Virus record (IMG/VR): IMGVR_UViG_3300036850_000005
Location: 1 to 23,122 of that record
DNA: 23,122 nucleotides
From: a virus
Direction: 5' to 3' (one strand)
The notes under the pieces are model-generated. The model did not search any database. It saw only the letters and a program-made list of their open reading frames with translations, and had not been told where the DNA came from. Position numbers and translations under genes: made by a program. Shown one piece after another: positions 924-21,251 of this stretch (position 1 is its first letter; each line of letters begins with the position of its first letter).

Positions 924-1573
924 ACGTAGTACAGATGCAGACTTATCTTAAGAGACAGTTCGGTGATGAGTCTGGGGTACAGGTAACTGATGAAGACATT
1001 GTTCGCTGGATTAATGCTGCTCAGAAACAGATAGTTCTTCAGAACGAATCTCTTCTAGAAGTAACTTCTACAACTAGTTCTATTATAGGTACACAGTCAT
1101 ACGATCTTCCTGTCGATCTGTTGAAATTGCGTGGTATTCAGTATAGAAATTCTACTACACAACCATATTATAGGTTAAAAGGGTACTCTCTAGCTGAGTT
1201 TAATGAAAAAGTAGACGGGTGGGATAACTCTCAGGAACCTGGGGATCCTTTTTGTTATACTATCTATAACAGTAAAATTCTTGTATTTCCTATTCCAGCC
1301 ACAGTTGTTACTGCTGCTTTTAAAATTTACTATAACAGAACTCCAGTAGATGTAGTTACAGGTACAGACGTTCCGGAACTACCTGTACTATATCACGATA
1401 CTATTGTAAAATACTGTTTACAACAAGCGTATGAGTTAGACGAAGACTGGGATGCAGTAGGTAATAAAGCACAGGAGTTTGATAAAGATATCAATCTTCT
1501 TCGTGGTAAAGATGAGTGGAAAGTACAGGAATTTTATCCCAGTATTACAGTACTGAATGATGATGCTTGGTGA
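920..1573 (+). CDS. Head-to-tail adaptor, T7 gp11-like (tail tubular protein A type)
   Basis: A 217-aa protein with the pattern of podophage adaptor proteins. An N-terminal helical part carries DEDIVRWINAAQKQIV (about residues 24-39). A beta-rich middle has the typical YDLPVDLLKLRGIQYR segment (about 61-76) followed by a tyrosine-rich stretch. A helical C-terminus has YHDTIVKYCLQQAYELD (about 158-174). Adaptors of this family form a ring between portal and tail nozzle. The next gene, encoding a nozzle-like protein, begins 6 nt downstream behind GAGG, which supports the call. The family match is from recognisable sequence style, not a search. Confidence 0.7.
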   Translation: MNVVQMQTYLKRQFGDESGVQVTDEDIVRWINAAQKQIVLQNESLLEVTSTTSSIIGTQSYDLPVDLLKLRGIQYRNSTTQPYYRLKGYSLAEFNEKVDGWDNSQEPGDPFCYTIYNSKILVFPIPATVVTAAFKIYYNRTPVDVVTGTDVPELPVLYHDTIVKYCLQQAYELDEDWDAVGNKAQEFDKDINLLRGKDEWKVQEFYPSITVLNDDAW

Positions 1574-1579
1574 GGTCTC

Positions 1580-3745
1580 ATGTCTGGTGGTCAGGCTTTA
1601 AGATTAGGCCCCTTTGTCGGTGGCCTTAATACTGCAAGTGATCCGACTGCTATTGCAGATGCGGAGCTTGTAGAGCTGACCAATTTTGAATTAGATATTG
1701 ATGGATCTCTTATCTCCAGGACACCACTCCAGGAGCAGCAAGGACATATTGACTGGGGCGAAAGAATCGTTTGTATTGGTACTGGTATCTTTGGTACTGA
1801 TCATTACGTTATTGGATCTAATATTACTGGTGTCTATCATTATTTAAATGGTTCTTGGACTCTTATTACAAATACTTTCCAAGCATCGGTAGCTATACAG
1901 TATGCTAATACTGTATATCTAGTTCCTAAGCCTGGATCTGGTAATGGCGGTAAGTGGGATCCTGTCGGGGGATTTACTGCGGTTGCAGCTATACCTAAGG
2001 GTCAGGCTGCTGTAATACACAAAGAAAGATTGTTTATTTGTCCTGGTGTTGATTCTACTACTAACACTAGTAGACTTAGTTTTTCTGATCCAGGAAACTT
2101 TGACGTCTGGGGAGCTAGTAACTTTATCGATGTTGGTCAGGGTGATGGTACTAAGCTTATTGATTTAACAGTGTTTCAGGATAATGTATTACTGTTTAAG
2201 AATCAAACTACTTATGTACTATCTTATGACGTTAGGCCGACAGATGCTGTAGTGAGAAAAATTTCTAATACTATTGGTGTAACTAAGCAGTTTTGTGTTG
2301 TTAACTATGAAAATCAAGTATATGTGTTCCATGACGGCTGGGTGTATGAAGTACTAAATTATGATTTTAATAGATTGAATACTAAGGTACCCTTTGTTAG
2401 AGATGAGACTGCTCCTTCTGCATTTGCCTCTGAAAACATTTTTCTTTCTCTCCTAGATGATAGACTTATCTGTAGATTTTATAAGAAAGTCTATGTCTAC
2501 GGTATGCGTACTAGGACATGGTCTGAATGGTCCTCTGCATCAGATGATTTACAATTCTTTGGACCCATTACTACTATTAGACCCCCGACAGGGAAACAGT
2601 ATTATGCTGGATCAGCTCTCAGCGCTAACCGTGGTGTAATAAAGTTTGTCAATATACATAGTAGTTTAGATAGAGAACGTGCCTTTAATACAGCTATTAC
2701 TGCTTCAGACGACTTTAATGAAGTAGTAGTTAATAGTTGGGGAAATTCAGACCAGGGGGTTGCTTGGCTTACTAATGGGGGAGCTGCCTCAGATTATGAC
2801 AAAACAGGTACTGAAGGTACACATACTCATACTAGTGTAAACGTTGCTAGGTCTGCATGGTTGGATCTTAATATAAAAGATACTCAGAATAGAGTATTTG
2901 TCAAGACAAGTGCACTTGCTACAGGTGCTGCTGTAATTGTTGACTTGATTGCTAGGGATGATCAAGTAGGAGATAATTTCTACTTTGTCAGATTATCGTT
3001 TAATACAGATCAGACTATTACTATTTCTCTTATCAAGAGAATAGCCGGAGTGCAGACTACTTTAGTATCTACAGCTTCTGGGATAACCCACGTAGCTAAT
3101 ACCAAGTATGGTATTAGATTTAGGGTCCATGGATCACAGTTACAGGCAAGAATCTGGTTAGCGTCTAATCCTGAACCTATTACATGGCAAGTTGTAGCTA
3201 CAGATACTGTTCTTACAGCTGTAGGAGATGTCAGAATTAGAACTCTCCTTAGTGCTGGCAATACTAATACTCTACCTTTCACTTTCTCATTTGATGATTT
3301 TGAAGTAATAGATTTAGCACTAACTAACTATAATATTCAATGCTCTACAAAGACAAAAAACTTTGACATGGCTATCTCTCATCAGTTTAAGAGACTGTGG
3401 TGGTGGGGCGTTGATGTATCAACCCCTAATGATATTATTGGGACAGCTAGTCCTATTATTCTTTCTTTCAGTGTTACTTGGGATCAACTGGCGACTGTTT
3501 CGTGGGATGACTTAAACACATGGGACCAACCACTAACAGAGCCACAGACTGCTGTTACCACTATTATAGGCCAGGGCGGTCTGTCGAGAAGATTCGCTAA
3601 GTTCAACAAATCTCTTAGATACAGACAGATTAACTTTAAAACACAGATGTCTACTGACGGTTCTACTACAGATGGACCTGTACGGTTATTTACTATGACT
3701 ATTATTACAGAGTCCAAGGCCACAGTTCCTAAGCAGGTGAACTAA
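1580..3745 (+). CDS. Tail nozzle-like protein (tail tubular protein B type) with lectin-like insertion
   Basis: A 721-aa protein. The N-terminus (residues 6-45) has the opening seen in podophage nozzle proteins: a GPFVGGLNT segment, then ELTNFELDIDGSL. Residues to about 370 are beta-rich with repeating W/Y/G strands, consistent with a propeller. Residues about 374-580 look like a concanavalin/laminin-G jelly roll, starting near DDFNEVVVNSWG and ending at FSFDDFEVID; such domains bind sugars in many actinobacterial proteins. The C-terminus (FDMAISHQFKRLWWWG) returns to the nozzle pattern. It follows the adaptor gene and overlaps the next start by one base (TAATG at 3743-3747). It probably forms the tail tube end and may carry receptor binding. 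Confidence 0.7.
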   Translation: MSGGQALRLGPFVGGLNTASDPTAIADAELVELTNFELDIDGSLISRTPLQEQQGHIDWGERIVCIGTGIFGTDHYVIGSNITGVYHYLNGSWTLITNTFQASVAIQYANTVYLVPKPGSGNGGKWDPVGGFTAVAAIPKGQAAVIHKERLFICPGVDSTTNTSRLSFSDPGNFDVWGASNFIDVGQGDGTKLIDLTVFQDNVLLFKNQTTYVLSYDVRPTDAVVRKISNTIGVTKQFCVVNYENQVYVFHDGWVYEVLNYDFNRLNTKVPFVRDETAPSAFASENIFLSLLDDRLICRFYKKVYVYGMRTRTWSEWSSASDDLQFFGPITTIRPPTGKQYYAGSALSANRGVIKFVNIHSSLDRERAFNTAITASDDFNEVVVNSWGNSDQGVAWLTNGGAASDYDKTGTEGTHTHTSVNVARSAWLDLNIKDTQNRVFVKTSALATGAAVIVDLIARDDQVGDNFYFVRLSFNTDQTITISLIKRIAGVQTTLVSTASGITHVANTKYGIRFRVHGSQLQARIWLASNPEPITWQVVATDTVLTAVGDVRIRTLLSAGNTNTLPFTFSFDDFEVIDLALTNYNIQCSTKTKNFDMAISHQFKRLWWWGVDVSTPNDIIGTASPIILSFSVTWDQLATVSWDDLNTWDQPLTEPQTAVTTIIGQGGLSRRFAKFNKSLRYRQINFKTQMSTDGSTTDGPVRLFTMTIITESKATVPKQVN

Positions 3746-3966
3746 TGCCTTATACATCACGAAGTCAGCAGAATGTGTCTCCTTATGCTGTAGGTAATAA
3801 GATATATGGAGGTGGCAGATCTTTTCCTACCTCTGGCCCTGTCGACAAGATGGGTTATAGAGAACGGGATGCTACAGCTAGGGCTAGACGAGACGCTATA
3901 CTAAGACGTATGAAGGCAAATATGAACGGTAAATATGCTTCTGCTGATTCTCAAAGGGTGGTATAA
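3745..3966 (+). CDS. Small basic structural-block protein
   Basis: A 73-aa protein rich in Arg, Gly, Ser and Tyr, with an Arg-rich middle (RERDATARARRDAILRR, about residues 39-55). It has no membrane span or recognised domain. Its start overlaps the preceding stop (TAATG) and its stop directly abuts the next start (TAAATG), so it sits inside a coupled structural operon. The basic nature would suit DNA contact or virion packing; this is inference. Confidence 0.65.
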   Translation: MPYTSRSQQNVSPYAVGNKIYGGGRSFPTSGPVDKMGYRERDATARARRDAILRRMKANMNGKYASADSQRVV

Positions 3967-4566
3967 ATGCCTGGTTTATCCAAGTCTGGTGGAAGTTTAA
4001 AAAAGAGTACACCTACTAAGAGTTTATCTAAAGCAGCAGGTTCTAAATTGAGCAAATCGACTGCTGTACAATATGCGTCTAAGCCTAAAGTTGGAGCTAA
4101 CTCCTCCGGTCAATACGGCGGTGTGCCTTCTGTACCTACTGCGACAGCTGGTCCTATTGATATTGAAGGATACTTAGGCGGAGATAGTTCTTATCAGCAG
4201 CAATTAAGACAGTTAGCTAAAGCATTAGCAGATTTTGGTGCTGACGCTACTCGTCGACAGGGAACGTTAGAGAGTGATTATGGAGTCTCCAAGAAAGCTC
4301 TAGGTGATCAGAGATTACTTGACTTAGACAATCTTGAAGATGACTACGGCTCTAGAGGATTACTCAGGTCTGGATTATACGGTAAGGCTGTAGGAGACTA
4401 TGAAACTGAATACGGTAATAGGGTTACTGATTTAGACCGTAGGCAGCAACAAGCTATGGACGCTCTTAATCAAGAACGTTCACAGTTTGGTAATCAGAAT
4501 ACTTTACAGCAACAAGCTGCACGGGAAGCTGCTATTAGACGTCGCGCTGAACAGTACGGGATGTAA
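3967..4566 (+). CDS. Coiled-coil virion protein
   Basis: A 199-aa protein. Residues 1-60 are Ser/Lys/Gly-rich and probably disordered. From about residue 60 to the end it is helical, with many Gln, Asp, Arg and Leu residues. The segment DDYGSRGLLRSGLYGKA (about 120-136) is a style I associate with actinophage minor structural proteins. The next gene encodes a longer protein of the same Gln-rich helical character, so the pair may be internal or tail-channel proteins that leave the capsid with the DNA. Exact role unknown. Confidence 0.7.
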   Translation: MPGLSKSGGSLKKSTPTKSLSKAAGSKLSKSTAVQYASKPKVGANSSGQYGGVPSVPTATAGPIDIEGYLGGDSSYQQQLRQLAKALADFGADATRRQGTLESDYGVSKKALGDQRLLDLDNLEDDYGSRGLLRSGLYGKAVGDYETEYGNRVTDLDRRQQQAMDALNQERSQFGNQNTLQQQAAREAAIRRRAEQYGM

Positions 4567-4568
4567 TT

Positions 4569-5858: not shown

Positions 5859-8800
5859 TGCCTAACAAACCTGCACCTAGTCCATTTAGTACTTTAGTAG
5901 ATTACTTCGGTAAGCCAGCATCAGGTCCTAGTTCTACTGATGTGGCTAAATTTATTCTGCTTAATGCAGCTACAGATAAACCACTAGGTCCGGGAATGTT
6001 AGACAACGGAGGTAATGAGCCTTCGTTAATGGGTAGGATCTTTGATGTCTTGTCCAGACCAAACTATGCAGTAGCAGAGTTTGTTAGGTCTATGGGAGAC
6101 CCTGAAGCTACATGGGAGGCTTTCCAAGGTAAGAGAAAGACTACATTCTCTGATGTATTGAGAGAAAGAACAAACATAAAGAACCCTGCTGTTAGAGCAA
6201 CTGCGGGGCTAGTGCTGGATATAGGGTTAGATCCAACTACCTATATTCCTGGTGCAGCTATTGCTAAGGGAGCTTCTAAAGTAGCAAGTGCTGTTAGAGG
6301 CACCAGTAAAGCAGTAGACGCTAGTAAGTTAGTGGCTAAAGATAAAACAATAGCACAAAAGCTATTAGACCAAGGTGAGCCTGTTTATCCTGAAGCATTT
6401 GGATTAAAGTTTGGACCTAGTGTTGAGATCCCCCAAGTACTCAAACGCCATGAGCAAGCTACAGAATTTAATTTTAGAGGAGACACTCTTAACCCTAGAG
6501 CTACACCGACAGGAAGTATCCCTAAATTAGGAGATACCCTTCCTGGACAGCTAGAACTCCCTTTGGAGAATATTCCTAAGGACATTCCTAGAGTTACACC
6601 TGAGTCCCTTCCTGTCGGCCAAGTAGAAAATTTGGGTTCTGTTACAAAAGGTCAGATTCCATTTAAGTTTCCTGACTTTACTCTAAAGGGTGCTAGGTCA
6701 TCTGTTGCTGTAGATAAAGCAGAACAGATTGTACAGAAGGCTGTTAGTGGGGATCCTGAGGCTTTATTAAGGGTGCTACCTAGACCTCAAGATGTTAAAA
6801 TTGGGGTTCGGGAACAAAAAGCAGCTGCGGAACTAGTAGCTAACTGGGATAACACTAAGGCAACTGCTAAGCTTAACCAGTTGTATCCTGAATCTATTAA
6901 TGCTAAGCAGCAAGTTAAGCTTTATTATAGAGCTATTGAAGCTGCAAAAAAGAGATTTAAGGCTCCGGATATTCCTGCTAATAAGGGCAGAGTTTCTTCA
7001 GATGCTTATAAGATTTATCTTGCTGCTGAGAAGGCTTTAGAAGCTAAGGGTCTTATTCCTCGTATCGGTACAGGGGAGAATGTTAGACTCTCTGAAGTAA
7101 TTCAGCAGGTTGGTGGACACAAAAATGCTCAACAAGTATTAGATGAGTTTGGTAATGAGATAAAACAAGGCGGATCTACTTGGCAGGCTATCGAAGCTCT
7201 AAGGGCTAGGGGAGCTATCGATGAGACCAAGTCTGTCAAACTTATTGCCGAGAAGATTCAAGAAGCTCATGTAGTTACTAAATCTAGCAATTTACTATCT
7301 GATGGATTTATTGATCAGTTCGATAGAGTTATAAAAAAACTAGGTAGTGCTACAGCCCGGTCGGCGGGACTTAGTCCTGCAAGTATCCAGGCGACTGATA
7401 AGCTTATTGATTTCGCTCTTAAAACTGGTAAATCTCCTGCCCAGATTGTTATTGAGCAAAAAGCTAAGATGCTTGATGATATCGTAGCCAAAGGTAAGGC
7501 TAATCCTAAAGTTAATACAGCGGTGACACGGGCTCTAGAAGCTGACTTAGGTACACTACCTAGGTGGGCTCAAACAGATAATAAAGCTGTAGAGTTTCTC
7601 ATGGGACGTGTAGCTACTTGGTGGGGACAAAGTGATCTAAGGCCACTGTCACTAAATGCTATTGGCTCTAGTTCAGCTACTGCGACAGCTAGGGGAGTAG
7701 CCTTAGATAAACTATTTCAGGGAGTAGCTCAGGACCAGAGATTTGAAGCTCTAAGATTAGCACAAGGTATTGGTACTCCTAGTACGCCAGAGACCCAACA
7801 ATTAGCTACTCAAATCGTTAGACTCATGGATAACATGGCTGGACAAGTATCTGGTCAATCTGTAGTTCTCCGTTCAGGTATTCATATGGATATGCTGAAT
7901 AAGTGGATGAATCATTATAAAGTAGGGTTTAATTTTACTAATAAAACAGCCAAAAACATATTAGGTGAAGTATTAGATTTCTCTAAGGGTACAGATTGGC
8001 TCAAAAGCTGGAAAACATTTGATGTCAAGATGGATCCTAAGATCTTTGTGTTCAAGTTACAACAGGCTATGGAACAGGCTACCAGGGAAAAAGCCCTATT
8101 CGATGAAATTGGAGAAAGATTCGGGGCTAAGACAGTCGGTAATGGATACAGACATAAGATCGAGGGGTACCCCTATCTAGACGGATACTACTTTACAGAT
8201 GATATTACTAAGCAGTTACCTAGAGTCGTCAGAGACTGGACAATTCCTGGTTGGACTCCTTCAAGTCCAGTAGTGAAACTATACGATAGAGTTCTCTCTA
8301 TGTGGAAGACTGGTGTCACTATTTATAGACCAGCTCACCACATTAGAAACATGGTTGGGGATATATACTTAGGCTGGATGGACGGGGTTAATTCACTTAA
8401 GCCATACACCTTGGCGGCTAAAGTTCAACGATCCATGCGTGGTGCTTATGATACGTTAGAGAATGTAGATAACTTAGTACAGTTAGGTATTATGGGAAAG
8501 AGTTTTAGGACTCCTCTCCCTGGAGAGATTCTGTTTAAAAATAAGAGTGGGGTGCAGTTTACTGCTGAACAAATTGGTGCTGTAGCTCATCAAAAAGGTC
8601 TTTTAGAGCATGTTAATACTTTAGAGGATATTATTGATCTGGGAGAAAGATCTAAGTTTAAGCCTTTAGGTGGTAGGGCTCAGAAAGTAGCTCGAAAGGC
8701 TTCAGAATTAGAAGCACATAATACTCGACTCGCACATTTTATCGATAAAGTTATGAAAAGTCGAGGCAGCAATTTAGACGAAATCTTTGAACAAGCAGCA

Positions 8801-9583
8801 CGGAGGGCGAGAAAGTGGCACCCAACAGGGTTGGATCTTACTCCATTTGAAAAGAATGTACTTCGCAGAATTATTCCTTTCTATTCCTGGATGCGCAAGA
8901 GCCTCCCATTACTTATCGAGGGCCTTGTTATGAATCCTGGAAAAACTGTTATCCCTGCTAAGATATACGATGCTATACAGGAATCTCAGGGTATAGAAAC
9001 ACCAGGAAGAGCAGATCCCTTCCCTGTCGACCAAATGTTTCCTGAGTGGATTAGAGCACAAGGATTAGGACCTATCTCTGGGCCGACAGGAATGTTAGGC
9101 GGGGTCTCTGATCAGATGCCTCCTGGTTATGTTATGGGTGGTGTAGGACTTAATCCTTTAACTGATCTTATATCTCAGATTGAGTCTCCAGGAAAAACTA
9201 TCACAAGCTCTTTGACCCCTGCAATTGGTATCCCTATCGAGCTAATGACTGGTAGGAAACTATTTACCGGAGAGCCTATCTCAGGACCTGAGGCTAGACC
9301 AGGTGCTATGGAACAGTATATCGGAGAGCAGATTCCTGGTTATTCTGTTTTCCAAGGTATCACTGGTGTAACTCCTTTTGGTACTGAAACTAGAAGGTCT
9401 GCAAAGAGTAGTGACGCAGGCATGGAATCTCTGATAAACTTTCTTACAGGTGCAGGAATTAAAGGTACTGGACCGTATATTAAACAAGGACAGTACGAAA
9501 AAGCTGCTCCATTGAAAGCTCAAAGAGCTAGCGATAGGGAAGCTTTTCTTAAGCATTTGAGAGAGCAGATGGGGGAGGGCTAA
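5858..9583 (+). CDS. Large internal virion (ejection-type) protein
   Basis: A 1241-aa protein, the largest in the window. Residues 1-150 are compact and Gly/Ala-rich. A Pro-rich linker follows (about 180-270), then long helical stretches. Around residues 800-850 there is a WKTGVTIYRPAHHIRNMVGD segment. Around 985-1035 an FYSWMRKSLPLLIEG segment follows a Lys/Arg-rich helix. Both are familiar from very large phage proteins thought to be carried in the capsid, including large polyvalent proteins. The C-terminal 200 residues are Gly/Pro-rich. The transglycosylase gene that follows starts right after its stop (TAAATG, 9581-9586), as in T7-like internal core blocks. No enzymatic motif was recognised. 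Confidence 0.65.
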   Translation: MPNKPAPSPFSTLVDYFGKPASGPSSTDVAKFILLNAATDKPLGPGMLDNGGNEPSLMGRIFDVLSRPNYAVAEFVRSMGDPEATWEAFQGKRKTTFSDVLRERTNIKNPAVRATAGLVLDIGLDPTTYIPGAAIAKGASKVASAVRGTSKAVDASKLVAKDKTIAQKLLDQGEPVYPEAFGLKFGPSVEIPQVLKRHEQATEFNFRGDTLNPRATPTGSIPKLGDTLPGQLELPLENIPKDIPRVTPESLPVGQVENLGSVTKGQIPFKFPDFTLKGARSSVAVDKAEQIVQKAVSGDPEALLRVLPRPQDVKIGVREQKAAAELVANWDNTKATAKLNQLYPESINAKQQVKLYYRAIEAAKKRFKAPDIPANKGRVSSDAYKIYLAAEKALEAKGLIPRIGTGENVRLSEVIQQVGGHKNAQQVLDEFGNEIKQGGSTWQAIEALRARGAIDETKSVKLIAEKIQEAHVVTKSSNLLSDGFIDQFDRVIKKLGSATARSAGLSPASIQATDKLIDFALKTGKSPAQIVIEQKAKMLDDIVAKGKANPKVNTAVTRALEADLGTLPRWAQTDNKAVEFLMGRVATWWGQSDLRPLSLNAIGSSSATATARGVALDKLFQGVAQDQRFEALRLAQGIGTPSTPETQQLATQIVRLMDNMAGQVSGQSVVLRSGIHMDMLNKWMNHYKVGFNFTNKTAKNILGEVLDFSKGTDWLKSWKTFDVKMDPKIFVFKLQQAMEQATREKALFDEIGERFGAKTVGNGYRHKIEGYPYLDGYYFTDDITKQLPRVVRDWTIPGWTPSSPVVKLYDRVLSMWKTGVTIYRPAHHIRNMVGDIYLGWMDGVNSLKPYTLAAKVQRSMRGAYDTLENVDNLVQLGIMGKSFRTPLPGEILFKNKSGVQFTAEQIGAVAHQKGLLEHVNTLEDIIDLGERSKFKPLGGRAQKVARKASELEAHNTRLAHFIDKVMKSRGSNLDEIFEQAARRARKWHPTGLDLTPFEKNVLRRIIPFYSWMRKSLPLLIEGLVMNPGKTVIPAKIYDAIQESQGIETPGRADPFPVDQMFPEWIRAQGLGPISGPTGMLGGVSDQMPPGYVMGGVGLNPLTDLISQIESPGKTITSSLTPAIGIPIELMTGRKLFTGEPISGPEARPGAMEQYIGEQIPGYSVFQGITGVTPFGTETRRSAKSSDAGMESLINFLTGAGIKGTGPYIKQGQYEKAAPLKAQRASDREAFLKHLREQMGEG

Positions 9584-10807: not shown

Positions 10808-11154
10808 AATTAGAGACTATAGTAACACTCTTAGGTATTGCTACAGCTTTATTAGTTCTGGTACAAGGGTATGATTGGTGGAAGAAAAGACAAAATAAGT
10901 CTTCTACAGATGTAGTGAGTTCTGCTATGCAACTGTTAACGCCTTATCAAGTCGAGGTCGACAGGTTGAGAGCCAGTCTAGGGAAGGCTAATGACCAGAT
11001 TCTTGATCTCACAGTAAAGCTTAACAACGCAGAAACTAGAGCGGATAATTTGAATAACCAGCTTGTAGACGCTCAGACTGAGGTAGGGTATCTTCGGACC
11101 CAGGTTAAAGTATTATCCCAACAACTAAGGAATAATCCTAATGAAACTAGTTGA
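10804..11154 (+). CDS. Membrane-anchored coiled-coil protein, lysis block
   Basis: A 116-aa protein with one N-terminal membrane helix (about residues 4-21), a short WWKKR basic stop and a long heptad-type coiled coil (about 52-110: regularly spaced Leu/Val/Ile with Asn, Gln, Asp). With a cytoplasmic or external coil this topology resembles i-spanin-like or antiholin-like partners of holins. It overlaps the 77-aa holin by 14 nt, and coupling suggests they are made together. Spanins are not expected in hosts without an outer membrane, although mycolate hosts have an outer layer, so the role is uncertain. Confidence 0.65.
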   Translation: MKLETIVTLLGIATALLVLVQGYDWWKKRQNKSSTDVVSSAMQLLTPYQVEVDRLRASLGKANDQILDLTVKLNNAETRADNLNNQLVDAQTEVGYLRTQVKVLSQQLRNNPNETS

Positions 11155-11374
11155 GATTAAGGTATGGGCTTCTTCTTTAGGGACCCTCTTAGCTAGTATT
11201 ATCCTAGCTGTACTCAATGCTGTATTAGCAGGTAACACTATTTTAGGAAGTCTGCCTCCTATTCTTCAAACTCTGATTCTTGTTATCATACCTCCTGTGA
11301 TTGCTTTTCTGTCGGGTTATGCCAAGAGATCCGGTACTTCTAACGTCAGTGATAAATACTTGGATGTAGAATAA
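11141..11374 (+). CDS. Holin (two membrane helices)
   Basis: A 77-aa protein with two strongly hydrophobic segments, about residues 10-30 and 39-61, joined by a short AGNTILGS-type turn. It has a charged C-terminal tail (KRSGTSNVSDKYLDVE). Size, topology and position immediately before the endolysin match class II holins, which open the cytoplasmic membrane so the lysin can reach the cell wall. Its stop overlaps the endolysin start in TAATG at 11372-11376. Confidence 0.7.
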   Translation: MKLVEIKVWASSLGTLLASIILAVLNAVLAGNTILGSLPPILQTLILVIIPPVIAFLSGYAKRSGTSNVSDKYLDVE

Positions 11375-12300
11375 TGGTTTTATTTGGGTTAGATATATCT
11401 CATCATCAGAGTTTCAGTCTTAATTTAGTTCAATGCAAAAAAGAAGGGGTTAGTTATATATTTATCAAGTCGACAGAAGGGTCGTCGTTCATCGATCCTG
11501 CATTTGCAGCAAATCTAGCAGAAGCTAAACAAGCAGGATTGCTAGTAGCTGCATATCACTATGTTAAGTCTAATGCTACCGCCTTAGCTCAAGTACAGAA
11601 TGTAGCAAGGGTCGTCCCTAAGGATGTTCCAGTTATCCCAGATGTAGAGGCTAACTCTGGGGGAGTAGCCCTACTCCGCAGTTTTGTAGGAGAACTTCAG
11701 CATGCTGGTTATCATGTACCGCTGACGTACCTCCCCAGGTGGTATTGGCAACAGATCGGGTCACCTGATCTTACAGGGTTACCAGCTCTTTGGAGTTCTA
11801 GATATCCAGATAATGTAGTAGGTACCATGCATGATGAATATGCAGACGTTCCTGCTACTTATTGGAATGGATACGGAAATTTAAGTATAGCTGTTCTTCA
11901 GTTTACTAGTTCTGCTCGTGTGGCAGGGTATCAACCTCTAGATGCTAATGCTTTCAGAGGCACTATAGAAGACATGAAAGTATTGTTAGGAGTAAAGACC
12001 GTGGCATTAAAAGATGAATTTTGGACAGTTACAGACTATGATAACAACAAAACCCTCCCTGTCGATGCACTGACTATGCTAGGTAACTTATATCAAATGC
12101 AGTTTTATGGATCTAAGACTGCTCCATGGAATGCTCCTTCTGAGGTAGCTATGCTGAAGGATTTAGTAGCTAGAGAAGCCGTACAAATCGATGAAGCAGT
12201 ATTAGCGCAGAAAATGCATGATCTAGGTATCGGGGGAGTGACAGTAGAACAAATTAAATCTTTACTCAATGAGCTTACTCTCAAAGCAATAGGCTCTTGA
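11374..12300 (+). CDS. Endolysin, GH25 muramidase
   Basis: A 308-aa protein. The N-terminal ~200 residues are a glycoside hydrolase family 25 (Cpl-1/Cellosyl type) domain: GLDISHHQ with Asp7, VIPDVEAN with the catalytic pair Asp90 and Glu92, AVLQFTSS (173-180) and a closing Asp190-Ala-Asn-Ala-Phe. It cuts the N-acetylmuramic acid to N-acetylglucosamine bond of peptidoglycan. Residues ~205-308 are a separate helical tail, ending in a segment of the GVTVEQIKSLL type common at actinophage lysin ends and likely used for wall binding or oligomerisation. There is no signal peptide, so it should need the upstream holin. Confidence 0.9.
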   Translation: MVLFGLDISHHQSFSLNLVQCKKEGVSYIFIKSTEGSSFIDPAFAANLAEAKQAGLLVAAYHYVKSNATALAQVQNVARVVPKDVPVIPDVEANSGGVALLRSFVGELQHAGYHVPLTYLPRWYWQQIGSPDLTGLPALWSSRYPDNVVGTMHDEYADVPATYWNGYGNLSIAVLQFTSSARVAGYQPLDANAFRGTIEDMKVLLGVKTVALKDEFWTVTDYDNNKTLPVDALTMLGNLYQMQFYGSKTAPWNAPSEVAMLKDLVAREAVQIDEAVLAQKMHDLGIGGVTVEQIKSLLNELTLKAIGS

Positions 12301-12331: not shown

Positions 12332-12703
12332 ATGGATATTAATGTAGAAAGTATCTATGTCTGGTCTAAAAACAGCAAGTGTAGGAATGAAGGTGTCTTC
12401 CAAGAACACTTGACTAAAAAATATTGCACTGACTGTCCTGTTATCAGTCAGTGCAATATTTATGGAATTGTTCACCACGAGCGTGGTATCTGGGGAGGAA
12501 CTAATGAAGCAGAAAGACTAAGGGTGGATTCTTTCTTTGTAGACTTGTTTACGCAATTATATCGGGAGGCTGGTCTCCTAGAGAATCGTTCAACTGACCC
12601 TTTAGAATCGTTAGGGCAGCTGGTGGCACTACGACAGGGAGGTATCTTCCCCACCGACGAGATTGATCACGAGAAGGATCCCAAGTTAAACCAATCTGCT
12701 TGA
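12332..12703 (+). CDS. WhiB-like (Wbl) iron-sulfur regulator
   Basis: A 123-aa protein. The four cluster-binding cysteines are Cys17, Cys32, Cys35 and Cys41 (C-x14-C-x2-C-x5-C). They are followed by the Wbl turn GIWGG (52-56) and EAERLR. Wbl proteins are actinobacterial transcription factors that bind the primary sigma factor. Phage copies exist; WhiBTM4 of mycobacteriophage TM4 inhibits host WhiB2. The C-terminal ~50 residues lack the usual basic AT-hook-like end. No good ribosome binding site precedes the ATG, and only a weak 6-bp hairpin (12305-12320) separates it from the lysin gene. Codons 30-44 lie inside a 17-bp inverted repeat that also acts as a terminator on the other strand. Its last 155 nt overlap the convergent 150-aa gene. 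Confidence 0.88.
   Translation: MDINVESIYVWSKNSKCRNEGVFQEHLTKKYCTDCPVISQCNIYGIVHHERGIWGGTNEAERLRVDSFFVDLFTQLYREAGLLENRSTDPLESLGQLVALRQGGIFPTDEIDHEKDPKLNQSA
12416..12461 (-). terminator. Intrinsic terminator of the leftward operon, inside the Wbl gene
   Basis: A perfect 17-bp inverted repeat (arms 12419-12435 and 12445-12461) surrounds a 9-nt loop. Read on the - strand, the second arm runs into six T residues (complement of the A run 12416-12421), giving the stem plus U-tract of a Rho-independent terminator. It lies ~90 nt past the stop (12549) of the last leftward gene. Read on the + strand the stem lacks a following T run, so it should stop only leftward transcription. The same bases encode the KKYCTDC...QCNIYG region of the Wbl protein. 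Confidence 0.85.
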
Positions 12704-13001
12704 GTGTTCCTTTAGCACATTCTATAGAACAATGAGAGATGCTGGTAACATTCCATCGATATGCGAATGTGCCACCACAGAACTTGCACTGTTTTTCTTT
12801 AAATTTATAGCCTTGAGTATCAAAATAGATAATAGCGGACTCAGCCTCGCGCATCTTATCTAATGTCGTCTCAGCAGGTAGTTCTACTGGGATAGAACTA
12901 AACTCCTCTGCTGAGCCCCCCATTAGCTCAAATACTTTAGCTGCTTCTTCTAAGGCACGTTTGGCCTTAGTTTCTTCGCTGAGTTTTCCGCGTCCCATCA
13001 T
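12549..13001 (-). CDS. Zinc-knuckle protein, last gene of the leftward operon
   Basis: A 150-aa protein (148 aa if the second of two tandem ATGs is used, which is better spaced from AAGGA). A helical N-terminal half is followed by a likely zinc site, Cys72-x2-Cys75 ... Cys91-x3-Cys95. After it come WDPS and RWGR and a Pro-rich PVVVPPAAL, a style I associate with conserved actinophage proteins of unknown function. Treble-clef-like DNA or RNA binding is plausible. The 3' end overlaps the convergent Wbl gene by 155 nt, and both reading frames look conserved in style. The preceding 35-aa gene ends inside its ATGATGG start. Confidence 0.75.
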   Translation of the reverse strand: MMGRGKLSEETKAKRALEEAAKVFELMGGSAEEFSSIPVELPAETTLDKMREAESAIIYFDTQGYKFKEKQCKFCGGTFAYRWNVTSISHCSIECAKGTLKQIGLTWDPSRDQSRRWGRYLPVVVPPAALTILKGQLNDSLGDQPPDIIA

Positions 13002-13753: not shown

Positions 13754-13904
13754 TAGTTAATCTTTCTAATTGTACTCTTGATACTAATTTATTAACTCTA
13801 TTAGCCAGGTCTGGGTCTAGTACAACTAATTCTAATCTTTTCTCTATCTGTCTTGTTAGTTCTGCTTGTCTTTCTTCTCTAAGTCTTCTCGACAGGTAGC
13901 TCAT
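13743..13904 (-). CDS. 53-aa charged helical protein upstream of dut
   Basis: A short gene from ATG 13904 to TAA 13743, ending 11 nt inside the dUTPase gene. The product starts MSYLSRRLREERQAEL and is rich in Arg, Glu and Leu with heptad-like spacing, so it is probably one or two helices. It fills the only gap between the 72-aa gene and dut, starts 12 nt after the former's stop and has an AAGG upstream. Codons 3-6 contain one copy of the dispersed CCTGTCGR motif. No family recognised. Confidence 0.6.
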   Translation of the reverse strand: MSYLSRRLREERQAELTRQIEKRLELVVLDPDLANRVNKLVSRVQLERLTNED

Positions 13905-14585: not shown

Positions 14586-15020
14586 TCAACTATCCAATAC
14601 TCTCGCTCTAATTAATCCTCTTCTATGTAATTCCCAGTAGCCGATGAGATAAGAAGCTTGCCAATCTGGCATGTGTTTAGTCTTATCTACTTTCATGCCA
14701 GACCACAGAGCCGCAACCATCTTAACGTTCGGGGGTATCTCTACTACTTCTATCTTGTGTCTTCTGGCATATCCTTTAATATCCCCTATTCGTTGAGCTG
14801 TCAGGAGCTTGTCCCCCGTATGGGAAATGCCCGGTCTAGGTCTGTATGACTCTATAATGAATAGCTCTACTGTATCGGGAGTCTTCTCTATCTTTTCGTC
14901 AAACTCCTTTTCTGTAAGACTCTCCATAGCTTCCGGTGTACACTGCTCATCCCACAGCGTCCTACCTGTCGATCGTTTACTAGCACTCCCTCCTGGATCC
15001 CAGCTTATATATTTAATCAT
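14586..15020 (-). CDS. RuvC-like (RNase H-fold) nuclease or Holliday junction resolvase
   Basis: A 144-aa protein with an RNase H-like pattern: first strand KYISWDPGGSAS with Asp8, a central strand ending LFIIESYR with Glu57, the middle segment EVVEIPPNVK, and a final helix MPDWQASYLIGYWELHRRG with Asp119. These three acidic residues fit the metal-binding site of RuvC-type nucleases. Such phage enzymes resolve branched DNA before packaging. The family is deduced from motif layout; a different RNase H-fold nuclease is possible. Its start overlaps the stop of the exoribonuclease gene by 4 nt. Confidence 0.65.
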   Translation of the reverse strand: MIKYISWDPGGSASKRSTGRTLWDEQCTPEAMESLTEKEFDEKIEKTPDTVELFIIESYRPRPGISHTGDKLLTAQRIGDIKGYARRHKIEVVEIPPNVKMVAALWSGMKVDKTKHMPDWQASYLIGYWELHRRGLIRARVLDS

Positions 15021-15496: not shown

Positions 15497-15861
15497 CTTC
15501 TATTATCTTTCCTTAGCCGACAGGCAACCAGTGGCTCATCGATATATTCGCTTAGTCGTAAAGGTACTCCAAATATTTTAGCGTCTCTGTACATATGCCT
15601 ATCTGGTGACGCTACCCAGTTAAGAGGTATCAGCACATACAACTCAGCATCGAATTTAGCGTACTTCCAGGAATCTATTGTATGAAGAATATCTTTTGAT
15701 TGTTGTAGTGTTAACCAATCGGGTATATATTCACGTACAAGATTGTCATTATCCCAATCTATGGGATCAGTGCTAAATCCAGAATGAAGATTAATCTTAT
15801 GCCGAATATCTCTAATCCTAGGAATTCCTTCGTTCGTCGGATAAATAGGAGGCTCAGTCAT
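15493..15861 (-). CDS. 122-aa hypothetical protein
   Basis: A soluble protein rich in Asp, Arg, Ile and Pro (IYPTNEGIPRIRDIRHK at the N-terminus, LYVLIPLNWVASPDRH in the middle, Arg-rich end). No recognisable domain, membrane span or metal site. It overlaps neighbours by 4 nt at both ends, so it is expressed as part of the DNA-metabolism operon. Function unknown. Confidence 0.7.
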   Translation of the reverse strand: MTEPPIYPTNEGIPRIRDIRHKINLHSGFSTDPIDWDNDNLVREYIPDWLTLQQSKDILHTIDSWKYAKFDAELYVLIPLNWVASPDRHMYRDAKIFGVPLRLSEYIDEPLVACRLRKDNRR

Positions 15862-16328: not shown

Positions 16329-16491
16329 CTAATAATTCCTCGTATTGTTTCTTAATGGAATTTGATTGTTTTCGGGTCTCTATCTCCAAGTGAGTTAGTG
16401 CGTCTAACCATCCCTGTCGGTACATCATCAGGAGTAATCTCAAAGTTTGTATTTCTTTTGAGTCCAATTGAACGCTCTCGGAGGTATTCAT
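16285..16491 (-). CDS. 68-aa helical protein overlapping the RHH gene
   Basis: The likely start is ATG 16491, behind GAGGA with 4-nt spacing; a TTG 15 nt upstream is less likely. The product is helical (LRLLLMMYRQGWLDALTHLE, then KKQYEELLDV) and has no known domain. It overlaps the 3' end of the ribbon-helix-helix gene by ~140 nt in another frame, and the 52-aa gene by 44 nt. A good ribosome binding site and amphipathic helices argue that it is real, but the long same-strand overlap lowers confidence. Confidence 0.5.
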   Translation of the reverse strand: MNTSESVQLDSKEIQTLRLLLMMYRQGWLDALTHLEIETRKQSNSIKKQYEELLDVSDIQKMADTEKL

Positions 16492-16633
16492 TAATTCCTC
16501 GCTCAAGTATTTGTCTGATAGATTCAGCCCTACTTATTGCTCCAGAATATTTATGGTAATCATCAATTAACTTATCCATGTCTCCGGATATAATTAGAGA
16601 TGTTTTGACCGTATCTGTTCTACGCTGCCGCAC
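16352..16633 (-). CDS. Ribbon-helix-helix DNA-binding protein
   Basis: A 93-aa protein starting at GTG 16633, 14 nt inside the end of the polymerase gene. Residues about 9-50 show a short beta strand (VKTSLIIS) followed by two helices (DMDKLIDDYHKYS and SRAESIRQILERGINEYL), the layout of CopG/Arc-type repressors. These bind DNA as dimers with the strand in the major groove. The last ~40 residues are polar and probably flexible. It is the only clear small DNA-binding regulator on this strand, so it is one candidate for recognising the dispersed motif, without direct evidence. Confidence 0.7.
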   Translation of the reverse strand: MRQRRTDTVKTSLIISGDMDKLIDDYHKYSGAISRAESIRQILERGINEYLRERSIGLKRNTNFEITPDDVPTGMVRRTNSLGDRDPKTIKFH

Positions 16634-18356
16634 GAGGAATCCATTTCTCTTTAGTCCCCCACTTATTAATATCGACCTTAAATTTTACACCAAAATCAGG
16701 CTGAACATCTTCAAGCTCCTTCTTGATTTCTGGAAGATATTCATCCTCTTTACCATTTTCAATTTCAAACACTAAGTCATCATGAACTTGGAGATTGAGG
16801 AGACATTCTTTTGTAATAAGACCAGCATCTCTAACCCTGATACTCCCCCGTTTGACAATCTCAAAAGCTCCACCTTGAATAGCAGAGTTATCAGCTAGCC
16901 AATATTCGCTAGGAAATTGGAAGTGCCTACGTCTTCCTGACCAGTATCTAACAAACCCCTGTTGAGCTGCTCTAGCCTCTGCTAACCTACTAAACTTTAA
17001 AAATCCTGGATACTTATTAAAGTAATTATCTAGCATTGCTTTCGCTGCTTGATTACTGACACCAAATACATGAGAAACCCTATCTATTCTACCTCCATAA
17101 GAAATAGTGTAGTTGAAAGTCTTTGTAGGATCTCGTGGCATTCCAAGTTCAGCGGACATCTCATTGAAGATATCTCGAGATTCATCATTAAATACTGCTA
17201 TAAGACCCTTCTCCCCTGCATAAGCAGCTTTTAGTCTGAATTCGAGTTGGGAAAAGTCTGCATCCCACAGAGTATAGCCGTCTCTAGGGATAAAAGCTCT
17301 TTTAAGCTTACCGTTCCAGTCTTTATCTGAAGTTTTTGGAATCTGGTGCAATATGCTTGCTGAAAGACGGCCCGTTTTTGTTCCATGTTGCTTAAAATTT
17401 GTTCGGAATCGTCCGTCATGACTTAACTTCTCTAAGTATGGATTATAATTAGAGCCTGTAGTTTTAGACCATCCTCGATAGGTCATGATTAACTTAGCCC
17501 TATGATCACCATTACGCTCTAATAGTTCATCATAAATTTTCATATTCTCTTTATTAAAAGAATATTTACCTCTCTTACCTCTTTTTCCTACAGGAGGAAG
17601 CTTTAAATCTTCTAGAAGAAACTTACCTAATTGATCTGGAGACCCTGGATTAAAACCAAGTTCTTTTTTAATTTCAGCCATGATCTTAAGACCACGGTCT
17701 AGTTCTTGCTCACAAAAAGATTGATTAATAAGAATACCTGTATCTTCCATATCCATCAGAAGCTTACAGAATTCCTGTTCAAAGTCCCACAGTTCTCCAT
17801 CAAATCCCTGACTAACAAAATCAGAATACAGCTTATAAAATAAATCTTCAGTAATAAATGCATCATTAGCACCATATGGCCGAATCACATCGACAGGGAT
17901 GTAATCCCATCCGAATGCTTTAATAATCTGATCCTGAAGTTCCGAGTTTCTCTTAGGCTCTCCTCCAAACTGCCTACTCAGATAATCCAGTTCTTTACTG
18001 AAGTAATTCTCATCATTCATATGAGCCATCAACATAGTACAATAAAACTTTTGTACCTTGCTAGGATCTACGCCAAGATTTCTCAGTGCCCTCAAATCAT
18101 GTTTAGCATGATGCATAATCAAGCACGGGTGATTCTGAATAACCTGAACTAACTCTGGGAGCCATTCAATAGGTAAGTTATTCCCTAATCTATGACTAAA
18201 TGCAAAATAATCGCCTTGTCCCCCAGCACTAGTAGACACACCCCAGGTATCGCTGAAGGGATGGTTAATCCTACCCTCAGTGTCTATAGTAAGATATTTA
18301 GACTCGCGAGCCTGTTTGACGTATTTATCAAACTCATCCTTGGTTAGATAACTCAT
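16620..18356 (-). CDS. polA: DNA polymerase, family A, with 3'-5' exonuclease domain
   Basis: 578 aa from the ATG at 18356, chosen because AGGA lies 6 nt upstream and the ATG overlaps the previous gene's stop (ATGA). The proofreading domain has Asp25/Glu27 (TIDTEG), HHAKHD (82-87) and Tyr161-x3-Asp165. There is no 5'-3' nuclease domain. Polymerase motif A is DADFSQLEFR (catalytic Asp367), motif B runs R408-x3-K412-x3-Y416-x3-Y420, and motif C is VHDDL (catalytic Asp526). Tyr416 occupies the place of E. coli Phe762, as in T7 polymerase. Motif C reads HDD instead of HDE. It is the likely phage replicase, next to the primase-helicase. Confidence 0.95.
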   Translation of the reverse strand: MSYLTKDEFDKYVKQARESKYLTIDTEGRINHPFSDTWGVSTSAGGQGDYFAFSHRLGNNLPIEWLPELVQVIQNHPCLIMHHAKHDLRALRNLGVDPSKVQKFYCTMLMAHMNDENYFSKELDYLSRQFGGEPKRNSELQDQIIKAFGWDYIPVDVIRPYGANDAFITEDLFYKLYSDFVSQGFDGELWDFEQEFCKLLMDMEDTGILINQSFCEQELDRGLKIMAEIKKELGFNPGSPDQLGKFLLEDLKLPPVGKRGKRGKYSFNKENMKIYDELLERNGDHRAKLIMTYRGWSKTTGSNYNPYLEKLSHDGRFRTNFKQHGTKTGRLSASILHQIPKTSDKDWNGKLKRAFIPRDGYTLWDADFSQLEFRLKAAYAGEKGLIAVFNDESRDIFNEMSAELGMPRDPTKTFNYTISYGGRIDRVSHVFGVSNQAAKAMLDNYFNKYPGFLKFSRLAEARAAQQGFVRYWSGRRRHFQFPSEYWLADNSAIQGGAFEIVKRGSIRVRDAGLITKECLLNLQVHDDLVFEIENGKEDEYLPEIKKELEDVQPDFGVKFKVDINKWGTKEKWIPRAAA

Positions 18357-18526
18357 ATTTGATCCTGCGAACAAAGACTACTATGCCACTCTACGTGTTT
18401 TTCAAGATAATCTGTTAGTACTAAGCTAAAACACTGCTTACAAGTATACACATTAGCTACAAAACCTTTTTTGTCCATTAAGTCGTAATCGGCCCTATTA
18501 TTGAAATAATTTTGAAGATTTATCAT
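18353..18526 (-). CDS. 57-aa C2H2-like zinc-finger protein
   Basis: A short gene between the primase-helicase and the polymerase. Its ATG overlaps the primase stop (ATGA at 18523-18526), and its TGA (18355-18353) overlaps the polymerase ATG. The product has a near-classical zinc finger, Cys29-x2-Cys32-x11-His44-x3-His48, preceded by a polar stretch (NNRADYDLMDKKG). Perfect coupling on both sides makes it convincing. Its position between two replication enzymes suggests DNA binding or replisome assembly, which is inference. Confidence 0.75.
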   Translation of the reverse strand: MINLQNYFNNRADYDLMDKKGFVANVYTCKQCFSLVLTDYLEKHVEWHSSLCSQDQI

Positions 18527-20265
18527 AATTCAAATCCTACGCCTGAGGTAAAGATCTGTTGGTCTTTGTCCTGACTAACTTGACCGTTGAATACTTGGAA
18601 GTCTAGATTCTGTGTTCTCTGTACATAGAAAGTCTCGAATTTTTTAGCCATGCGAAGCTTAATATTACTAACTTCAATAGGCCCACCAGGTTTAGTAGGC
18701 CATAAACAAATACCAGTGGTAACAGCTGCTCCAATATACTGAGAACCAAATAGATCCTCTAGTTTCTTGGGCGCTTTATTACCTACTTGTGGTTTACGAT
18801 TATGATGAATGAACCAAACAAAAGCCCCAAATCCTCCCCGTAAAACCCGATGTACGTAGTCAAGAGCTTCGAGAATAACTTTCTCTGAATTAATGTCGTC
18901 ACCAATTCCAACACCAAAAGAGTCGAAAATAATACCATCAGGCATAAACTCCTCTACTACTGCCGCAAGCTCTGCTTGTGCAGCTTTATTTCCTAATCTG
19001 ATTCCATAGCCCAATGGAAGAACTAAGAAGTTTTCTCGGAGTAAGTCTTTGTCACTATTGAACTGCATATTATCTACTAAATAGTGTAGTTCCTCATGTG
19101 GCATCTCCATTGAGACAAACAGAATCCGCATAGGTTTTGGTATAGGCCACTGTAAAAATGGACTTCCAGTAGCTAGTTTCTCAGCAAATCTAAGAGAAAC
19201 CTGAGATTTACCCACATCTGGCGGACCAGAGAGAATAGCCAACCCTTTACGGTGAATGAGTCCTTCAATAACCCACTCTAATTTAATCTCTGTATTAATA
19301 AACTCATCGTAGTTATAGACTACGAGTCTTTTCTCTACTTCAGTTTCTTTACCTACTGCATCGACAGGGTGCTTAGATCTACAGTAGTTAATAATACCAA
19401 GTAGTCTAGCTTTTTGGTCTTTGCGATCTTTATACTTTCCCCACCTATTATCAGCATTGAGAAGTAAAGCTAAAGTTTCAGCATTGGTCATACTGAGTTC
19501 CATACATATATGACCAAGTTTAGCTAAAGCATCCGATCGGTGACCCTTCTCTATTTTCGGGGTCATGAAAAACTTGAAGTCTTCCATTCTATCGGCAAAC
19601 GAATACTTAGCTATGACTTCAAGAGGAGCTGGGACATGATTAATATCGGATGTCTTTAAGAGTTTGACCGGTACAGCTGGAAGCTCATTAAAACTTCGTA
19701 TAGCTGTAGGGCGTAGGTCCCACCTAAACGTTGTGACTGTCAGACCTGACTCATGGTGCCGTGTACCAGGTGGCCTGAGCACCCTGTTGGCGTTCCAACA
19801 TCCTAAATCTGCATTCAAATGATAAGCAAGTCTACCGGTTATATCTTCAACTATATTGATATCTTCTACGAAATGATCTAATTTCCAATACCAGTGTTCA
19901 TGTTTATCTGTGGAGCTTTGTATCTTGATGGCGGGCTCAGGAATATCTGAGACATTAGCTGGGTCATTCCCGTCGAACTCAACCCAAACAACATTTGTTC
20001 CCTTGAAGCTGTCCTTCTCAGCATCTTTATCTGAACTGTAGAGAGCGGGCCCAAAGTAAACCTCATGACTTTGTGTCTTGGTTTGGATATGGGATATAAG
20101 TTGTTCTTTTTCTGTCGGCCAGTGAAAAAAGTATTGCTCGAACACTGGATTATCTGGATCTGGATTTTTTGTAGGGCTATAGGCGTAGCCAGTCTCTTCT
20201 CCATACATAAAGTCCAGGAATAATCCTAGATCTTGCATTGGATCTAGACTGATTACACTCCCCAC
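18523..20265 (-). CDS. Bifunctional primase-helicase (AEP primase plus RecA-fold helicase)
   Basis: A 580-aa protein starting at GTG 20265 behind AAGGAG. The N-terminal ~200 residues show archaeo-eukaryotic primase features: a WVEFDGND acidic motif (Glu96, Asp98), the SSTDKHEHWYW block (117-127) and RVLRPPGTRHH (161-171). A helical middle (~215-300) follows. The C-terminal half is a RecA-fold ATPase with Walker A GPPDVGKS (347-354), Walker B GIIFDS (444-449) and FIHHNR (485-490), as in RepA/DnaB-like phage helicases. It should unwind DNA and make primers for the adjacent family A polymerase. Walker A has Asp where Gly is more common. Confidence 0.9.
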   Translation of the reverse strand: MGSVISLDPMQDLGLFLDFMYGEETGYAYSPTKNPDPDNPVFEQYFFHWPTEKEQLISHIQTKTQSHEVYFGPALYSSDKDAEKDSFKGTNVVWVEFDGNDPANVSDIPEPAIKIQSSTDKHEHWYWKLDHFVEDINIVEDITGRLAYHLNADLGCWNANRVLRPPGTRHHESGLTVTTFRWDLRPTAIRSFNELPAVPVKLLKTSDINHVPAPLEVIAKYSFADRMEDFKFFMTPKIEKGHRSDALAKLGHICMELSMTNAETLALLLNADNRWGKYKDRKDQKARLLGIINYCRSKHPVDAVGKETEVEKRLVVYNYDEFINTEIKLEWVIEGLIHRKGLAILSGPPDVGKSQVSLRFAEKLATGSPFLQWPIPKPMRILFVSMEMPHEELHYLVDNMQFNSDKDLLRENFLVLPLGYGIRLGNKAAQAELAAVVEEFMPDGIIFDSFGVGIGDDINSEKVILEALDYVHRVLRGGFGAFVWFIHHNRKPQVGNKAPKKLEDLFGSQYIGAAVTTGICLWPTKPGGPIEVSNIKLRMAKKFETFYVQRTQNLDFQVFNGQVSQDKDQQIFTSGVGFEL

Positions 20266-20430
20266 CTACTTCTCCTTTGGACACTCTGGTGCATGACGAA
20301 TAGTAGTGGATCTAGTAAGCATATCCACAGATACATACACAGTACCGCCCATATTTATGGGTTTATTACAATTATCACAATCTATATCATTAGATACAGG
20401 TAGTCGAGAGTTAAATCTAATAGTATCCAC
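20266..20430 (-). CDS. 54-aa zinc-ribbon-like protein
   Basis: The open frame extends upstream into tRNA-Arg, so the true start must lie after the tRNA. GTG 20430 begins two bases past the tRNA 3' end and would use AGGGAC, part of the tRNA acceptor strand, as ribosome binding site. The product has Cys18-x2-Cys21 (CDNCNKPI), a beta-rich middle and His46 ... Cys50 near the end, a zinc-ribbon layout seen in small actinophage proteins. The stop TAG directly abuts the primase GTG. Confidence 0.6.
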   Translation of the reverse strand: MDTIRFNSRLPVSNDIDCDNCNKPINMGGTVYVSVDMLTRSTTIRHAPECPKEK

Positions 20431-20431
20431 G

Positions 20432-20504
20432 TGTCCCTGACAGGATTCGAACCTGCAACCTAAAGGGTAGAAACCTTTTGCTCTGTCCATTGAGCTACAG
20501 GGAC
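20432..20504 (-). tRNA. tRNA-Arg, anticodon TCT
   Basis: A full 73-nt cloverleaf: 7-bp acceptor (GTCCCTG/CAGGGAC), D stem GCTC/GAGC, anticodon stem AAAGG/CCTTT with loop TTTCTAC giving anticodon TCT, 5-nt variable loop, and T arm GCAGG-TTCGAAT-CCTGT. The discriminator base is A; CCA is not encoded (CGT follows). It reads AGA, an arginine codon used often in this genome but usually rare in G+C-rich actinobacteria. It lies 10 nt after the glycosylase stop within the leftward operon. Confidence 0.95.
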
Positions 20505-20514
20505 TGTGTTTAAT

Positions 20515-21105: not shown

Positions 21106-21134
21106 TATACTCCCTTTTATCTCCCGCCTCATAT

Positions 21135-21212
21135 TGGTACCCTAGAGGGGATTTGAACCCCTAACTACTTCATTTTAAGTGAAGTCCCTCTGCCAAATTG
21201 GGGTACTAGGGC
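21135..21212 (-). tRNA. tRNA-Leu, anticodon TAA, short variable loop
   Basis: A 78-nt gene including an encoded CCA (21137-21135). Acceptor GCCCTAG/CTAGGGT (one G-T pair), 3-bp D stem CCC/GGG, anticodon stem CTTCA/TGAAG with loop CTTAAAA giving anticodon TAA, variable loop TAGTT, and T arm AGGGG-TTCAAAT-CCCCT. It reads TTA, a codon common in this phage and rare in many actinobacteria. Bacterial leucine tRNAs normally have a long variable arm; this one has only five bases. An inverted CCTGTCG motif pair lies 4 nt upstream of its 5' end. Confidence 0.92.
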
Positions 21213-21216
21213 TTAG

Positions 21217-21251
21217 GTCGACAGGTAGTCTCCCTCCTACTACCTGTCGAC
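21217..21251. promoter_or_regulatory. Inverted pair of the dispersed CCTGTCGAC motif
   Basis: Arms 21217-21229 and 21239-21251 are perfect 13-base inverted copies around a 9-nt spacer. Each arm contains the dispersed motif (TACCTGTCGAC). It lies in the short gap between a 69-aa gene and tRNA-Leu. There is no T run on either side, so it is unlikely to be an intrinsic terminator. It could be a dimer operator, or a hairpin guiding tRNA processing if transcribed. Confidence 0.7.

Follow-up and report, generated by a model that had tools for sequence, protein, structure and literature searches.

The primase of phage T7 is of the TOPRIM/zinc type, and in the gene 4 protein it is fused to a hexameric helicase. 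Its sites, 5'-(G/T)2GTC-3', are scattered over the T7 genome; about 26 of them are strong, and after merging they lie at intervals of roughly 1-6 kb (PMC12839067). In RSF1010, which has one ssi per strand and a leading-strand mode of replication, the RepB' primase contacts seven bases of ssiA in a base-specific manner (PMC4434180). Recognition sequences have also been defined for homologous archaeo-eukaryotic primases (AEP), namely GTG(G/A) and TTTGGTTA for NrSPol of phage NrS-1 and GTG for ORF904 of pRN1; the long NrS-1 site has been put forward as a defined point for the start of replication, and the available part of that article describes neither family-wide enrichment at the genome scale nor drift for these two enzymes (PMC8718748). 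Here we analyze a 23,122-base stretch of viral DNA, positions 1 to 23,122 of IMG/VR record IMGVR_UViG_3300036850_000005 (hereafter the window), in which the motif CCTGTCG, nearly always followed by a purine (R), is dispersed over both strands and in which a gene at 18523-20265 encodes a primase-helicase. The CCTGTCG(R) copies are quite probably the recognition (priming) sites of this AEP primase-helicase, encoded by the phage itself.

The window contains 20 copies of CCTGTCG, 9 on the plus strand and 11 on the minus strand (Table 1). Dinucleotide shuffles of the window gave a mean of 1.14 copies and no more than 5. Enrichment also goes beyond codon constraints: shuffles in which the proteins and the codon use of each gene were held fixed, and in which the three of the 20 sites outside the coding sequences (CDSs) used stay constant, gave a mean of 5.0 and a maximum of 11 in 1000. 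After this codon correction CCTGTCG stands at the top of the 8192 strand-merged 7-mers (z 13.2), and its single-base variants show no excess in the same null (CCTGTAG, 8 versus 8.5; CCTGTGG, 1 versus 2.2; CCTGTTG, 5 versus 6.6). The flanks are constrained as well, with T at −2 in 16 of the 20 copies, a purine directly 3' of the core in 19 and a pyrimidine at +2 in 16; the sole copy lacking the purine, at 12632-12638 on the minus strand, has T there (CCTGTCGTA). Six near copies, TCTGTCG, all retain the purine. Structural as well as replication genes contain sites, which lie on both strands; 17 of the 20 are coding, 10 in the direction of the gene and 7 opposite to it. An earlier reading of this DNA made from the letters alone (the sequence-only reading) had seen the look of a dispersed protein-binding site in these copies, and that view is upheld. 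Codon-preserving shuffles, its proposed check, did not reproduce similar counts. It was also right about the six near copies and about the occurrence of sites in both orientations across structural and replication genes. Its count of 19 cores (9 plus, 10 minus) was correct as to the excess but short by one, most likely the copy at 12632-12638, so that the flank constraints hold overall but the purine is not invariant. Its statement that the motif covers both arms of the phage genome is borne out for dispersal but not for genome-wide extent, the record being only a fragment; more complete relatives measure 45-48 kb.

As T7-like use of such sites would require, a primase-helicase is encoded by the phage. 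The 580-residue product belongs to PHROG 3123 (annotated 'unknown function') and has an AAA_25 helicase half. An AlphaFold model of residues 1-310 (mean pLDDT 85) matched the PrimPol of phage S-2L with Z 19.2 (root-mean-square deviation [rmsd] 2.4, 174 residues) and RSF1010 RepB' with Z 17.0 (rmsd 2.8, 169 residues), and the C-terminal half of the full model matched RSF1010 RepA with Z 24.0 (rmsd 2.8, 231 residues). The conserved columns include AEP-type residues around F97-D98 and H124, which, judging from the family, are probably catalytic. According to the models, the protein looks like a fusion of two RSF1010 replication enzymes, combining the folds of the RepB' primase and the RepA helicase, in a layout that parallels T7 gene 4. 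The resemblance to T7 gene 4 thus lies in the fusion of primase to hexameric helicase and, under the reading proposed here, in a short sequence scattered over the genome, and that to NrS-1 PrimPol and ORF904 lies in an AEP primase joined to a helix-bundle domain. Unlike T7, with its short core, the primase here is of the AEP type and the motif is 7-8 bases long, exceeds every other word of the genome in over-representation and is spelled differently even in close relatives; unlike RSF1010, each genome has tens of sites.

The window had no match among deposited phages at the DNA level, and relatives were sought through its polymerase protein in IMG/VR and among deposited phages. The deposited relatives are Arthrobacter phages Jasmine and Casserole, Cellulosimicrobium phage DS1, Microbacterium phage Shocker, and ctEqG8. 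Every polymerase relative that also has the primase-helicase carries a CTGTNN(R)-type word of its own, so that the motif diverges across the family. Most of these relatives have CCTGTAGR (one of them, G001, has 65 copies of CCTGTAG in 47 kb versus 5.8 expected). The enriched word is CTGTAGC in two others (G008 and G015), CTGTCGC in DS1 (47 versus 7.5 expected), CTGTGGG in Jasmine and Casserole (47 and 45 versus about 3.2) and CTGTAAAG in Shocker (45 versus 0.13). The Jasmine primase-helicase is gp39. In each of these relatives the count of its own motif exceeded 100 of 100 codon-preserving shuffles, and enrichment beyond such shuffles was seen in all 26 motif-bearing genomes or contigs with a primase-helicase match (z 5.6-21.6), a test for which the motifs were chosen from the same genomes. 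Being related, the genomes do not count as independent cases, and several of the relatives are represented by fragments; the unbiased evidence consists of the 7-mer rank test, the comparisons with siphoviruses and control contigs, and the test of orthologous positions described below. CDS maps for the 26-genome, 7-mer-rank and control-contig tests came from a greedy choice of open reading frames. The dispersed motif is not mentioned in the available parts of the papers on Jasmine (PMC5513430) and on Microbacterium phages (PMC7302621). Two relatives have additional words: Shocker is also over-rich in CCTGTCG (48 versus 18 after codon correction) and TTAGGGTA (15 versus 0.09), possibly reflecting two recognition classes or a recent switch, and DS1 has a second enriched word family, GATAGCCT/AGGCTATT.

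The sequence-only reading had suggested that related phages be compared for conservation of the sites. For window sites in genes common to ten CCTGTAG-type relatives, the seven orthologous bases were read through codon alignments, and the synonymous codons of the relatives were shuffled to provide a null. Exact CCTGTAG was present in 28 of 109 orthologous comparisons, compared with a mean of 6.5 and a maximum of 11 in 200 shuffles, and nine different window sites contributed to these matches. CCTGTCG itself was found in 0 of 109 (2.4 expected) and CCTGTTG in 1 of 109 (6.0 expected). The position is therefore kept above the shuffled level and is spelled in the relatives' own way, and the sites have been replaced one by one at orthologous positions. 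Because CCTGTAG is so frequent at these positions and CCTGTCG is absent, many sites have stayed in place while one base was switched genome-wide. Such a one-base change across retained sites matches the prediction for a shift in the specificity of a trans-acting reader, and the alignments suggest a joint change of an enzyme and dozens of its sites.

Which protein is the reader was addressed with a gene table over 30 genomes. Nearly all motif-bearing genomes have uracil-DNA glycosylase, PolA, the primase-helicase, Sak4, a RecB/Cas4-like exonuclease and a Snf2-type helicase. One could therefore envisage that the motif serves another protein of this module, for instance as a phage-encoded Chi-like signal; dispersed Chi-like signals exist in bacteria, and the proteins concerned accompany the primase in most motif-bearing genomes. 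Two genomes, G011 and G014, argue against this. Their PolA is about 41% identical to that of the window, and they have homologues of the glycosylase, Sak4, the exonuclease and the Snf2-type helicase, yet they lack a TGTNG motif and their enriched words include GGGGTGG. The AEP component of G011 is of another type, a Pfam Prim-Pol (PF09250) primase joined to an AAA helicase half, and the G014 contig, a 30.7-kb fragment, yielded no primase. Likewise, Pseudoalteromonas phage H40/1 lacks such a motif, although it has annotated genes for a cas4-like nuclease and a helicase as well as a homologue of Sak4. A profile of the AEP and helix-bundle region matched every motif-bearing genome except G013, whose contig ends there, and found no match in G011, G014 or H40/1. 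The motif is thus associated with this AEP domain, and we regard another protein of the module as an unlikely reader. H40/1, whose primase is of the PF09250 type, was searched for another dispersed motif and no word stood out, indicating that not every AEP phage has one. The words enriched in G011 and G014 are GGGGTGG/GGGTGGA and a GCCGGC family; the PF09250-type primase may recognize GGGGTGG. PrimPol was also sought in plasmids, and none was found. Among the binders that the sequence-only reading had put forward, the ribbon-helix-helix (RHH), Wbl and Cys-rich proteins have become less likely owing to their patchy presence in motif-bearing genomes: the RHH-like protein (16352-16633) has a homologue in one relative only, and WhiB and the Cys-rich protein were not found in several motif-bearing genomes, siphoviruses included. 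Primase sites, which it had listed as an alternative, are now favored by the evidence.

The comparison was extended to eight siphoviruses whose structural genes are unrelated and whose primase-helicases are remote homologues (about 22-26% identity). In seven of these eight phages, which have only the replication module in common, the top codon-corrected 7-mer contains TGTGG: GGTGTGG in Emalyn, Triscuit and Lebethron, TGTGGCC in Pikmin, and CCTGTGG in ctuI7215, the Desulfofustis phage and Strzyga. Of all 7-mers, 2.3% contain TGTNG, and such words were on top in none of 15 control contigs. Ranks were preferred to z values, because unrelated words reach codon-shuffle z values of 6-9 in GC-rich genomes such as that of the eighth phage, HippoPololi, and up to 7.8 in the controls. 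The motif thus follows the primase between genomes, with HippoPololi as one weak exception. These comparisons also bear on a signal imposed by the host, such as a host Chi site, a restriction-methylation site or the site of a host nucleoid protein. Dispersal over both strands, independent of orientation in most genomes, would suit such a signal, but in Gordon, an unrelated phage of Jasmine's host (Arthrobacter sp. ATCC 21022), CTGTGGG occurs 3 times versus 3.7 expected (one host tried), and the TGTGG class recurs in primase-sharing phages of Gordonia, Microbacterium, Pseudomonas and Brevundimonas. We therefore consider a host signal very improbable. The Gordon count also speaks against a host-wide effect, the second outcome that the sequence-only reading had named as refuting its view.

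In most genomes, neighboring sites on a strand are separated by about 1-3 kb, and the spacing is more even than random (Stouffer z −5.5 over 43 strand sets). The genomes accordingly show many short sites on both strands at Okazaki-like intervals, as dispersed primase sites would. An even distribution over the whole genome could also be produced by a DNA-bridging or packaging protein that coats it, and Jasmine encodes Lsr2-like proteins; however, the annotations of DS1, ctEqG8 and Shocker list no Lsr2-like gene, and none of the structural families tested is common to the motif-bearing podoviruses and siphoviruses, so that there is little to recommend this explanation.

Site orientation does not change where gene direction changes. 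In Jasmine, 33 of 47 sites are on the plus strand and 14 on the minus strand (codon shuffles give 3.4 and 4.0), and the plus-strand sites number 5, 5, 6, 6, 6 and 5 in successive sixths of the genome, covering both transcription arms. In Jasmine and Casserole the motif is twice as frequent on the plus strand along the whole genome, whatever the direction of the genes, which suggests forks running mostly one way. For Emalyn and Lebethron, codon shuffles reproduced most of a plus-strand excess, which was given no weight as evidence. A switch in site orientation was also considered as an origin signal; none was found among 18 genomes except in Shocker, at a nominal p of 0.013.

The stoperators of Cluster A mycobacteriophages, repressor sites that block transcription elongation, are short, asymmetric and dispersed, with a consensus that varies from one relative to another. 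Sites of this kind would explain the many short asymmetric copies and the divergence seen here, and the two share a TGTC core, by chance or otherwise (the stoperator core is taken from general knowledge and from the sequence-only reading). In the window, however, the sites are mostly intragenic rather than intergenic and do not follow transcription, as described above, and the plus-strand sites of Jasmine are equally dense in both transcription arms. Neither an integrase nor a repressor was recognized in the window, itself a fragment, no repressor-like family was recognized among the proteins common to motif-bearing genomes, and in the available part of the Jasmine paper Galaxy is the only integrase-encoding phage of the set (PMC5513430). 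Sites here are associated with a primase rather than a repressor. The sequence-only reading had itself doubted the analogy because of the coding positions and the disregard of transcription direction, and it was right to do so; a stoperator-like function seems distinctly improbable.

We return to priming by the AEP primase-helicase. The hexameric helicase half would travel along the lagging-strand template, and the primase half, a catalytic AEP domain with a helix-bundle domain, would read the exposed single-stranded motif and begin a primer at or beside it. A usable site would be needed every 1-3 kb per strand, regardless of gene position; a primase depends on recognition sequences that recur along the lagging strand, whichever genes are present, which would account for sites on both strands that ignore the genes. 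As the specificity of the primase drifted (CTGTAG, CTGTCG, CTGTGG, CTGTAAAG), the sites would be rewritten in step. Several observations weigh against this explanation. The motif, at 7-8 bases, is longer than most known primase sites, and known AEP sites center on GTG, which is not contained in CTGTCG or CTGTAG. The association between primase and motif is a correlation, drawn from phages that are related and hence not independent, and the structural genes of G011 and G014 also set these two apart from the motif-bearing podoviruses. In HippoPololi, which bears the primase, GGTGTGG is raised (z 5.6) but is not the top 7-mer. Finally, a fixed fork direction should produce a strand bias, but most genomes show none, and it is clear only in the Jasmine genus.

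The last two copies in the window form the arms of a perfect hairpin (Table 1), which might be an ssi-like or origin element. No positional equivalent of this hairpin pair was recognized in the relatives, and pairing of sites in hairpins was rejected as a general feature, as divergent pairs showed no clear excess over convergent pairs. Elsewhere in the window, where the gene arms meet, a WhiB-like gene (12332-12703) and the gene for the Cys-rich protein (12549-13001) share about 155 bases on opposite strands; G001 shows the same opposed overlap, and the WhiB gene of Jasmine is likewise overlapped by an opposed gene. The gene at 11374-12300, a putative GH25 gene in an endolysin-like position, has no match in the relatives compared.

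Table 1. Copies of CCTGTCG and associated features in the window (G numbers denote related genomes)
Feature	Position	Strand	Remarks
CCTGTCG copy	1109-1115	+	In tail gene 920-1573; CCTGTAG at orthologous position in G002, G003
CCTGTCG copy	1961-1967	+	CCTGTAG at orthologous position in G001, G004
CCTGTCG copy	2586-2592	-	CCTGTAG at orthologous position in G001, G002
CCTGTCG copy	3838-3844	+	–
CCTGTCG copy	4255-4261	-	Aligned position not conserved in relatives shown
CCTGTCG copy	6507-6513	-	–
CCTGTCG copy	6611-6617	+	CCTGTAG at orthologous position in G002, G005
CCTGTCG copy	9023-9029	+	CCTGTAG at orthologous position in G003, G005, G006
CCTGTCG copy	9084-9090	-	CCTGTAG at orthologous position in G002
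CCTGTCG copy	10959-10965	-	–
CCTGTCG copy	12058-12064	+	–
CCTGTCG copy	12632-12638	-	Sole copy with T in place of purine after core
CCTGTCG copy	13890-13896	-	Outside CDSs used
CCTGTCG copy	14965-14971	+	CCTGTAG at orthologous position in G002, G004, G005
CCTGTCG copy	15518-15524	-	–
CCTGTCG copy	16413-16419	+	–
CCTGTCG copy	17891-17897	-	In polA; CCTGTAG at orthologous position in G002, G004
AEP primase + helix-bundle region + RepA/DnaB-like helicase, 580 aa	18523-20265	-	PHROG 3123, AAA_25; AlphaFold model
CCTGTCG copy	19362-19368	-	In primase-helicase gene; CCTGTAG at orthologous position in G001, G003
Inverted repeat, perfect, 13-bp, 9-nt loop	21217-21251	.	Two divergent CCTGTCG copies; beside tRNA-Leu (21135-21212)
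CCTGTCG copy	21219-21225	-	Left arm of hairpin
CCTGTCG copy	21243-21249	+	Right arm of hairpin

It seems reasonably likely that the AEP primase-helicases of the PHROG 3123 clade, in unrelated podoviruses and siphoviruses, use a genome-wide priming code of 7-8 bases that drifts even among near relations, in which tens of sites are rewritten along with the enzyme and the specificity can be read as the top codon-corrected word of the genome. If this is true, a phage protein family labeled as unknown would gain a function and a predicted recognition sequence, for many genomes at once, and these genomes would hold a natural record of a replication enzyme and tens of its sites shifting specificity together. 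The choice of start sites by a primase would then become testable with matched pairs of enzyme and template.

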